A stretch of DNA of 37,428 nt from Candidatus Bathyarchaeota archaeon RBG_13_38_9 (GTDB lineage Archaea; Thermoproteota; Bathyarchaeia; 40CM-2-53-6; RBG-13-38-9), in the NCBI GenBank assembly GCA_001775955.1, contig MEZD01000018.1, positions 49,016-86,443 of the forward strand, read 5' to 3'. This document shows, in pieces, positions 5,002-7,826 of this stretch (position 1 is its first letter; the number at the start of each line of letters is the position of its first letter). Made by a program: the position numbers and the translations under genes. Below the pieces are notes generated by a model that saw only the letters and a list, made by a program, of their open reading frames with translations, was not told the origin of the DNA and made no database searches.

Positions 5002-5256
5002 ATGGAGAATTTATCTGAGATTGGAACAATTGCCCACTTTTACTCAAAAATAGAGGTCTCAGTCATCGACTTGACAGCTCCTTTGAAAGTTGGCGATACA
5101 ATTGTCATTAAAGGATCGACAACCGATCTTGAACAGATTGTTGATTCTATGCAAGTAGAGCATAAGGATATTGAAGCAGCTGAATCAGGACAGTCAGTTG
5201 GTCTTAAAGTTAAAGGAATAGTACGAGAAGGAGATAAAGTCTATAAAAAAATGTAA
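5002..5256 (+). CDS. Small EF-Tu domain-2-like beta-barrel protein (translation factor-like)
   Basis: 84-aa ORF; IGTIAHFYSKIEVSVIDLTAPLKVGDTIVIKG...VGLKVKGIVREGDKVYKK resembles EF-Tu/IF2 domain 2. Confidence 0.75.
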   Translation: MENLSEIGTIAHFYSKIEVSVIDLTAPLKVGDTIVIKGSTTDLEQIVDSMQVEHKDIEAAESGQSVGLKVKGIVREGDKVYKKM

Positions 5257-5268
5257 TATTAGATTCCA

Positions 5269-6867
5269 TCACTTTTGAATATCGATCTTGTTTACTGACC
5301 TTGTTAGAAATGAATCTAAATAACTATCGAAACAATTAGCTTTTTGAAGATATTCTCCATACGAAACTAATGCAGCCATCGCCTGTACAGTGTCCTCTGG
5401 AGCTGGATACGCAGGAATACCGAATTTTTCAAATCTTGACCTCACATAAAAAGCCATTTCCGTCTCACCTATGTCGCAAGCCACAATCGGCTTAATTGTT
5501 CCAGCAGCGACTTTACCTATTCGATCTACAAAATCTTCTTGAATTGCTGGAACATGATGTAGTCCGATTACTATTATCCCATTAACTTCATTATCAGCCA
5601 CAACTATACTCATAGCCTTTTCAAACATTTCAGAAGTTGCTGAACCCGTTAAATCCACAGGATTCCTGTTTTGAACAAAATTTGGTAAGATTCCTTTCTC
5701 TTTCAATTTCTCAAATTTGTTGATAGTTTCATCTGAAAATAATTTAACATCAATTCCACGTAACTCACATGCATCTGATGCCATGACACCTGGACCCCCG
5801 GCATCGGTTATTATAGCAACATTTCTTCCTTGGGCGGGTGGTTGGAATGCTAAACCTTTTCCAATATTGAAGAATTCAGACATGTTATCTGATCTAATTA
5901 CTCCAATTTGAGAAAACGCAGCATCATAGACTGCACTAGCACCACTGATAGAACCTGTATGTGACTCTGCAGCCCTTGCACCTGCTTTTGTTCTTCCTGA
6001 TTTTAATACCACAATTGGTTTCGATTTTGTAACATCCTTCGCTACATCCATAAATGTTCTTCCATGAGTTATACTCTCTATATAGAGAAGAATCGCTCTT
6101 GTTTTATCATCATGATTCAGATAATGTAGTATCTCAGCCTCACTAACATCAACTTTATTTCCAAAACTAACAAACTTGCTTATACCTATCTGTCTTCCTG
6201 TCAGATAGTCAAGTGAAGCAGCTCCAAAAGCACCGCTCTGACTAACCATAGCAATATTGCCTTGCATAGGACGTGGCGTAGCAACCATCACATCTCCTGT
6301 CTTGAGCACCTTTGTCTCTGGAAGAAACAGTGTGTCTACACCAGTGTATGAATCGAAAACGCCTAAACAGTTTGGTCCAAGAATTCTGATTCCGAATTCT
6401 TTAGCGATATTTTTAACTTCATTTTCCAGTTGATCGTTTCCTACTTCTCCAAAGCCCGCTGAGATAACTATCGCTACACTAACACCTTTAGTTCCTGCAT
6501 CACGGAGAACATCAGAAACAGATTTGCTTGGTACAACTATAACTATTGCCTCAATATTTCCTGGAACTTTTCTCAGGGAGGGATAACATCGATGACCAAG
6601 AATACTTTCATCTTTCAGATTTATCGGGTAGATCTCACCCTTGAAAATTCCACGTCTCTTATTCTCAGCGAAGTTCGAGAAAATCACATTACCAGCTTTA
6701 TTGATATGTTTTGAAGCTCCAACAACCGCTATTGAATTTGGATTAAAGAATAGTTCTACCTTTGAATAATGATCATAATCGTTGATTGTAGATTCATGAG
6801 CTAACATTTCTATTCCGAACCATATCGGCGTGAGTATTGATTTTGTCGTTGCAATAAGTCTTTCCAA
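5269..6867 (-). CDS. Acyl-CoA/acetate-CoA synthetase (ADP-forming), alpha subunit / CoA-binding domain protein
   Basis: CoA-binding Rossmann domain (FFNPNSIAVVGASKHINKAGN), ILGPNCLGV, SQSGAFGAASLDY, and ESHTGSISGASAVYDAAFSQIGVIR with the phosphoryl-His region. Start uncertain. Confidence 0.9.
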   Translation of the reverse strand: MERLIATTKSILTPIWFGIEMLAHESTINDYDHYSKVELFFNPNSIAVVGASKHINKAGNVIFSNFAENKRRGIFKGEIYPINLKDESILGHRCYPSLRKVPGNIEAIVIVVPSKSVSDVLRDAGTKGVSVAIVISAGFGEVGNDQLENEVKNIAKEFGIRILGPNCLGVFDSYTGVDTLFLPETKVLKTGDVMVATPRPMQGNIAMVSQSGAFGAASLDYLTGRQIGISKFVSFGNKVDVSEAEILHYLNHDDKTRAILLYIESITHGRTFMDVAKDVTKSKPIVVLKSGRTKAGARAAESHTGSISGASAVYDAAFSQIGVIRSDNMSEFFNIGKGLAFQPPAQGRNVAIITDAGGPGVMASDACELRGIDVKLFSDETINKFEKLKEKGILPNFVQNRNPVDLTGSATSEMFEKAMSIVVADNEVNGIIVIGLHHVPAIQEDFVDRIGKVAAGTIKPIVACDIGETEMAFYVRSRFEKFGIPAYPAPEDTVQAMAALVSYGEYLQKANCFDSYLDSFLTRSVNKIDIQK

Positions 6868-6905: not shown

Positions 6906-6918
6906 AGTTTAATTAAAT
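6906..6918 (+). promoter_or_regulatory. Archaeal TATA-box-like element upstream of the candidate ncRNA
   Basis: AGTTTAATTAAAT lies about 20-27 nt upstream of the inferred RNA 5' end (about 6932). Confidence 0.45.
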
Positions 6919-6931
6919 TCTATGCAATCTC

Positions 6932-7206
6932 TTGGCTGGGGTTGATCATCCTTTAAGGGGCCGTAGATGGATGTCGAATTACGACTATCCAATGCGGATT
7001 CTAGCCAGGGATGACGACAGCCGAATATCCAAATATGAGTTCGGTCGCCAAGGGCTCCAGAAGAGACCTGAATATGGGTTTACTGACCTTTATTGGTATG
7101 AAGAAATTCAGGAGCGCGGGAAGAAACCCGTAGACATATACTATGGCGGAAGTCGAGGGTTCAAAATGGCTTAACACGCCATGATAGTCCCTTCGGCCCC
7201 ACCATT
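6932..7206 (+). ncRNA. Candidate structured non-coding RNA, family not recognised
   Basis: Higher GC than its surroundings. A closing helix UGG(C)UGGGG (6933-6941) pairs with CCCCACCA (7197-7204). Inside are hairpins at 6968-6991, 7021-7044, 7067-7112, 7116-7131 and 7143-7182. A TATA-like box sits upstream and a T-rich tract (about 7236-7260) downstream. Codon usage of the overlapping ORF is atypical. Confidence 0.65.
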
Positions 7207-7304: not shown

Positions 7305-7826
7305 ATGTTTAATCCAATCGTTCCATCCGTTGCCGTGATAGGGGGAAAATCTTCAGGTAAGACTGCGGCTGTAGAAGTAATAGTGCAAGCTCTTAAAAAG
7401 AGAAAATTAACTTCAATGACTGTAAAACACGTGAGCCAGTCAGATTTCAGTGTAGATAAAAAAGGCACTGATACGTGGAGACATTGGAAAGCTGGAGCCG
7501 AAATCGTTTCAACTGTCTCAAATCTTGAGAAGGCCATAATGGTAAGAGATGGTAGAGACTTGAATTTTAATGATTTTAACATTTGGACAAAAAATGTCGA
7601 TGTAACAGTCTTTGAAGGCTTTTCTTACTCATTGTTGAGAGAAGAAAAAGTCGGAAAAGTCATTTGTCTCAGAGACAAGTCTGAGAAGGATAATTATCTT
7701 GTGGATTTGAAAGGAACTTTGATAGCATTGTGCAGTTTTAGAGTTTTAGAAAAAGACACTCTCAGGCTGGGTATTGATGACAATATTCTAGCCGAACGAG
7801 TCTTTGAATTCTGTAAGACCATCTAA
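7305..7826 (+). CDS. mobB: Molybdopterin-guanine dinucleotide biosynthesis protein B (P-loop)
   Basis: 173 aa; Walker A variant VAVIGGKSSGKTAAVEVIVQAL, TVKHVSQ...DTWRHWKAGAE, VDVTVFEGFS. Confidence 0.85.
   Translation: MFNPIVPSVAVIGGKSSGKTAAVEVIVQALKKRKLTSMTVKHVSQSDFSVDKKGTDTWRHWKAGAEIVSTVSNLEKAIMVRDGRDLNFNDFNIWTKNVDVTVFEGFSYSLLREEKVGKVICLRDKSEKDNYLVDLKGTLIALCSFRVLEKDTLRLGIDDNILAERVFEFCKTI

Follow-up and report, generated by a model that had tools for sequence, protein, structure and literature searches.

A tRNA-Trp(CCA) gene with five introns in Bathyarchaeia

Archaeal tRNA introns that present a BHB motif are excised by EndA, and the exons are ligated by RtcB (PMC4090602). The closest described systems are the tRNA-Trp(CCA) of Haloferax volcanii and the Pyrococcus sR50 case, in which this kind of tRNA-Trp intron harbors a nested box C/D RNA guiding methylation at residues 34 and 39 (PMC4090602, PMC7994747). 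Several non-canonical BHB introns within one tRNA gene, intron gain by transposition and a two-subunit-type EndA are described for Thermoproteales and other Thermoproteota (Sugahara 2008; Fujishima 2010; PMC4033280; PMC8450103); intron transposition in Thermoproteales is known from Fujishima 2010, as cited in PMC4033280. According to reviews and the tRNAscan-SE 2.0 report, an archaeal tRNA gene contains three introns at most (PMC8450103, PMC4033280, PMC3293823). A 2024 Asgard study describes many multi-intron tRNAs in Atabeyarchaeia and Freyarchaeia (PMC11291895); these intron-rich sets belong to a different lineage and may hold higher per-gene counts. A literature search for tRNA introns in Bathyarchaeia found no papers devoted to them.

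The locus described here resembles the Haloferax and Pyrococcus tRNA-Trp in its CCA anticodon and its 37/38 intron, which has a typical length (65 nt, with a median of 65 nt in PMC4090602) and contains D'/C' boxes, a guide for residue 39 and complementarity to the anticodon loop around C34. It differs from them by four further introns, by a C instead of a U at residue 39, by terminal C/D boxes that are unrecognisable and by variant letters in D'/C' (CNGA / TGANGA). With the multi-intron genes of Thermoproteota it has in common several non-canonical BHB introns and, as argued below, probable intron gain by transposition and a two-subunit-type EndA; unlike them, it belongs to Bathyarchaeia and carries five introns. 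Five introns in one tRNA gene exceed the maximum of three stated in the reviews.

Architecture of the tRNA-Trp gene

The window, a stretch of 37,428 nt, contains a divergent gene (5269-6867, minus strand) whose product is a CoA-binding/succinyl-CoA-ligase-like (ADP-forming acyl-CoA synthetase) protein and, to its right, mobB (7305-7826, plus strand). Farther left, positions 5002-5256 of the plus strand encode an 84-aa protein that is EF-Tu domain 2-like by a sub-threshold Pfam match and adjoins a pheS-like gene. For the tract between the acyl-CoA synthetase gene and mobB, a first-pass annotation had proposed an unrecognised structured RNA of about 275 nt (6932-7206). Much of what it described is borne out. 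The complementary segments it listed are all present where it placed them, the tract is richer in G+C than its flanks (0.41-0.51 vs 0.29-0.40 in 100-base windows), a TATA-like tract precedes it and a T-rich tract lies beyond 7240. The predicted fold is more stable than those of dinucleotide shuffles (-102.8 vs -80.3 kcal/mol, z = -4.2, with 0 of 200 shuffles as good). By inspection the annotation had recognised no SRP helix-8, RNase P, 5S or tmRNA signature. Rfam gives no match at gathering and no relevant family at E <= 10, and ARAGORN gives no tRNA or tmRNA match on the window.

The tract is indeed a structured non-coding RNA gene, but its family is known. It is almost certainly the precursor gene of a Bathyarchaeia tRNA-Trp(CCA) with five BHB introns and a TATA element (Table 1), whose transcript EndA and RtcB would process and whose canonical intron would guide the modification of C39. 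The functional unit is accordingly 6957-7204, plus strand, and not the extent first given. Removal of the five introns leaves 77 nt, in which ARAGORN recognizes a full four-arm cloverleaf tRNA-Trp(cca), with the archaeal D-arm GTCTAGCCAGGGATGAC and the anticodon loop CTCCAGA (7055-7060 and 7126). On the unspliced gene ARAGORN calls nothing, even with anticodon-loop introns permitted. Rfam and ARAGORN miss the gene because the introns interrupt the D arm, the anticodon stem, the anticodon loop, the variable loop and the T loop. The gene structure, its conservation, the precise absence of introns in relatives, the BHB geometry, the covariation and the presence of the enzymes are established here.

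Table 1 Features of the tRNA-Trp locus, in positions of the window
Feature	Position	Strand	Evidence
Putative TATA-like promoter element AGTTTAATTAAAT	6907-6919	+	sequence; similar AGTTTAATTAAA / CTTTAATTAAA in the G006 / G004 orthologues
Leader element TGGCTGGGG, complementary to acceptor 3' strand and CCA (7197-7204)	6933-6941	+	conserved in the order, in genes with the 10/11 intron and in family f3
Exon 1, tRNA 1-10 (acceptor 5' strand GGGGCCG, 6957-6963; T8 A9 G10)	6957-6966	+	ARAGORN, orthologue alignment
Intron 10/11, 33 nt, BHB central helix CCGT/GCGG, 4/4 pairs	6967-6999	+	precise absence in relatives, BHB scoring
Exon 2, tRNA 11-28	7000-7018	+	ARAGORN on spliced sequence
Intron 28/29, 33 nt, within anticodon stem	7019-7051	+	absent in relatives; hairpin covaries
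Exon 3, tRNA 29-37, anticodon CCA (7057-7059) within CTCCAG	7052-7060	+	ARAGORN
Canonical intron 37/38, 65 nt, box C/D-like guide RNA	7061-7125	+	D'/C' layout kept in relatives
D' guide GGGTTTA, matched to AAACCC, which straddles the 3' splice site	7076-7082	+	matched variants in relatives
Box D' CTGA	7083-7086	+	sequence, relatives
Box C' TGAAGA; k-turn-like with D' and CC/GG stem (7087-7088/7095-7096)	7099-7104	+	relatives
TTCAGGAGC, 8/9 complementary to anticodon loop GCTCCAGAA	7107-7115	+	9/9 version in relatives
Exon 4, tRNA 38-45	7126-7133	+	ARAGORN on spliced sequence
Intron 45/46, 18 nt, BHB central helix CCGT/GCGG, 4/4 pairs	7134-7151	+	absent in relatives, BHB scoring
Exon 5, tRNA 46-59	7152-7165	+	ARAGORN on spliced sequence
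Intron 59/60, 22 nt, T loop, hairpin TGGC/GCCA	7166-7187	+	absent in relatives; hairpin covaries
Exon 6, tRNA 60-76 (acceptor 3' strand CGGCCCC, discriminator A73 = A7201, encoded CCA; 7194-7204)	7188-7204	+	ARAGORN

Conservation, splice-site geometry and covariation

In a first search, which covered the window's genome together with 60 relatives, nearly every member of the order proved to have the tract, but certain parts of it were regularly missing. The match in genome G014 ends at window position 7165 and restarts at 7188 with no gap in G014; the bases flanking this junction, GGGTTCAAA on one side and TCCC on the other, are those of the tRNA T loop. We then scanned 257 genomes of the class with a pattern built on the canonical intron and the sequence on either side of it. 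The 118 non-identical candidates were aligned with the mature tRNA by dynamic programming, in which an intron could be placed at any position. Across the class the genes contain one to five introns. All five are present in six genes (G000, G003, G004, G006, G012 and G017), which represent several genera and two families, the window's own and one other; G008 has four, and its contig end falls inside the fifth. A further gene among the 118 that the script reported with five introns (L194, genome G059) was discarded as a false match, with a score of 21.5 and 12 mismatches. At the lower end of the series, the gene of Bathyarchaeota JdFR-04 (L051, MTLR01000163) has the 37/38 intron alone and otherwise the same exons.

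This one-intron relative, a plain tRNA-Trp, bears on the idea of an archaeal tmRNA-like molecule with tRNA-like ends around an insert. The 5' GGGGCCG and the 3' GGTTC...CCACCA do resemble tmRNA ends, but a full D arm and a full anticodon arm are present between the introns and neither Rfam nor ARAGORN reports a tmRNA, so that we assign this reading a negligible probability. The orthologues also dispose of the open reading frame at 6932-7174, which the first-pass annotation had doubted. Its 80 codons are open from a TTG, but it has no Pfam match and is not conserved: the inserts of the orthologues are not multiples of three, and their longest stop-free stretches vary in frame and span 28-75 codons. 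We regard the frame as spurious, and a coding gene as the least probable of all the explanations considered.

Each of the four non-canonical introns (10/11, 28/29, 45/46 and 59/60) is precisely missing in some relatives. Intron 10/11 is absent from G005, G009, G016, G019, the genomes of family f3 and JdFR-04; intron 28/29 from the f3 genomes and JdFR-04; intron 45/46 from G013 and JdFR-04; and intron 59/60 from G014 and all f3 genes. That every gene found has the 37/38 intron follows from the search pattern, of which this intron was a required part. Among the individual genes, that of G013 (L015) has a 28/29 intron of 91 nt, compared with 16-45 nt in relatives. A MAG of another family (G188) carries, on JAGTRG010000039.1, a second tRNA-Trp (L048/L167) almost identical to that of G009 (L005), which is probably contamination of the MAG.

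Splice sites were scored as a BHB with a 4-bp central helix between the exon and the 3' part of the intron, flanking 3-nt bulges and a cut after the second base. The full central helix is formed in 7 of 7 introns at 10/11, 27 of 27 at 45/46, 25 of 35 at 28/29, 8 of 10 at 59/60 and 19 of 110 at 37/38, and none of the 189 introns at these five positions has fewer than three of the four pairs. Shuffling of the intron letters gives a full helix in 1-5% and at least three pairs in 8-22% of cases. Where the alignment was ambiguous the boundary with the better BHB was picked, which introduces a mild bias into these counts. In the window itself four pairs are present at 10/11 and 45/46 and just three at 28/29, 37/38 and 59/60.

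When the six genes with all five introns are compared, the stems of the tRNA and the intron hairpins are paired in 97.0% of cells, compared with 26.9-55.7% when the structure is slid, and they contain 13 double-sided changes. Compensatory changes occur at three pairs of the 28/29 hairpin, at two pairs of the 59/60 hairpin (TGGC/GCCA, TGGT/ACCA, TAGC/GCTA, TAGT/ACTA) and in the 10/11 hairpin. Of the internal hairpins in the first-pass annotation, two are real intron hairpins (6969-6990 and 7021-7044, the latter covarying) and the others are not. CCUGAAU/AUUCAGG, GCGGG/CCCGU and AUGGCG/CGCCAU are local coincidences, with no double-sided change and 56-95% of cells paired in orthologues; so is AAGGG/CCCTT, its CCCTT being the 3' strand of the T stem. 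The end-closing helix and the long-range fold built on it are not conserved as a fold, and what survives of them is the strand 6933-6941, which is part of an order-conserved leader element. A new structured RNA class of about 275 nt working as one unit would explain the stable fold and the absent Rfam match. It would leave unexplained that the exon segments make up a complete tRNA-Trp, that the inserts are individually gained or lost in relatives and that the proposed long-range helices lack covariation; we give it hardly any probability.

The pattern of the tRNA-Trp gene has no second copy in the assembly. As the genome is 75% complete, a second tRNA-Trp could exist elsewhere, and together with the unusual number of interruptions this is what a decayed pseudogene with random inserts would have in its favor. 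Against such decay, the exons form a perfect cloverleaf, the same architecture recurs in six genomes that span two families and several genera, and the BHB motifs and compensatory changes have been maintained; with no other copy of the pattern in the assembly, we consider a pseudogene very improbable. The genome also encodes a tRNA-synt_1b (Tyr/Trp-type) protein.

The canonical intron and proposed intron gain within the gene

The layout of D' and C' with the CC/GG stem in the 37/38 intron is kept in 111 related Bathyarchaeia tRNA-Trp genes. In the pairing of the D' guide with its target (GGGTTT/AAACCC) the fifth base ahead of box D' faces C39. Guide and target change together: GGGTAT accompanies ATACCC in several relatives, and GGGTCT accompanies AGACCC in one. 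In several f3 genes the match of the D' guide is lost. The variable bases of D' (CNGA) and C' (TGANGA) are G/A in 41 genes, T/A in 17, T/C in 17, C/G in 15, G/C in 10 and other combinations in 11, counts too mixed to be used as covariation. Genes for fibrillarin and Nop5 are present in the genome, adjacent to each other, and by analogy with the known tRNA-Trp introns these proteins would 2'-O-methylate C39 under the direction of the D' guide. The anticodon-complementary segment, TTCAGGAGC, has in many relatives the counterpart TTCTGGAGC, which matches the anticodon loop at 9/9 positions. It is possibly a guide for C34, a BHB partner, or both; no canonical D box (CUGA) is found at the N+5 distance from it, and the 37/38 intron has no clear box C.

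Comparison of the non-canonical introns provides insights on their origin. The exon hexamer CCGTAG precedes both intron 10/11 and intron 45/46, and each of the two introns ends in GCGGA; one central helix, CCGT/GCGG, therefore serves both. In G012 the two introns (acaaaacattggcggac at 10/11 and acaaaacattggcggaa at 45/46) are identical at 16 of 17 positions, which suggests that an intron was copied within the gene. As the 45/46 intron is far more widespread, being found in 27 genes compared with 7 for 10/11 (8 if we count G014, where the aligner put the boundary at 8/9), copying from 45/46 to 10/11 would be the simplest reading. Introns at 59/60 with the same ends (TTCAAA|AT...ATGA..) are observed in other tRNA genes of the order (L198-L210), for example a Glu(CTC)-like gene.

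The leader element and proposed processing of the transcript

The leader GGGG lies 24-27 nt past the centre of the TATA element, approximately at the expected transcription start. It is complementary to the tRNA 3' end in 8 of 8 genes that have the 10/11 intron and in 16 of 16 genes of family f3, where the element reaches nine bases, GGTGGGGCC, and extends into the CCA. The element is found in none of the five remaining genes of the order and in just 2 of the 87 genes from elsewhere in the class. We also considered a sixth intron, which would separate the GGGGCC copy of the leader from the acceptor, and rejected it, since the upstream GGGG would face the GGGG at the intron end, these cannot pair and no BHB would form. 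Within the window's own genome, a tRNA-Arg(CCG) (L058, C9:18734-18809) has in its leader a stretch, AGCGGGC, that matches the 3' end of the same tRNA as a complement (P 0.002 by shuffling), and six other tRNAs are without such a leader. Seventeen tRNA matches are given by Rfam in this genome, and ARAGORN recognizes four, one of them with no defined anticodon. Because most of its tRNA candidates (L060-L073) are missed by ARAGORN and appear to bear introns, the whole tRNA set is probably intron-rich.

Folding predictions that include the leader place the 3' strand of the tRNA on the leader and abolish the acceptor stem in all 8 and all 16 element-bearing genes. For the five genes of the order that have no element the mean predicted acceptor probability is 0.91, and for the remainder of the class it is 0.77. 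In the window, G006, G004 and G013, the 10/11 BHB helix has a predicted probability of 0.00-0.23 when the leader is left out and of 0.92-1.00 when it is included; in the four other genes no such rise is predicted. Shuffled leaders produce the same effect less often, yet sometimes, because they too are G-rich.

The genome encodes two PF01974 (EndA-type) proteins together with RtcB, as expected for a two-subunit splicing endonuclease, an enzyme that accepts non-canonical sites. We infer the transcription, splicing and methylation of the locus, and a role of its leader, as follows. Transcription would proceed from the TATA element, the two-subunit EndA would excise the five introns and RtcB would join the exons to the 77-nt tRNA. 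Formation of the 10/11 BHB would require the release of tRNA bases 5-8 (CCGU), which the acceptor stem normally holds paired. At its start the transcript would repeat the acceptor 5' strand (GGGG, in relatives up to GGTGGGGCC), and this copy could pair with the tRNA 3' end, including the CC of CCA, and so open the acceptor stem. We therefore offer, as a tentative and rather doubtful proposal that follows the predicted folds, that the leader may be a built-in decoy strand that prevents the acceptor stem from closing before the 10/11 intron is excised; RNase P would then remove the leader once this intron is out. Five introns and a decoy leader would together make an ordered, self-scheduled splicing pathway. 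We claim no order of splicing from the predictions, because the BHBs other than that at 10/11 do not dominate the predicted ensemble. Since family f3 has the element without the 10/11 intron, its distribution shows that the putative element has another or older role.

The five-intron gene shows how a tRNA can vanish from Rfam and ARAGORN scans, and where MAG-based work on this lineage reports that tRNA-Trp is missing, the absence could be an artefact. The differing sets of introns at the same sites within the order, with one to five introns per gene across the class, provide a natural series for tests of intron gain. The decoy leader, if true, would be a new way to order the steps of RNA processing.
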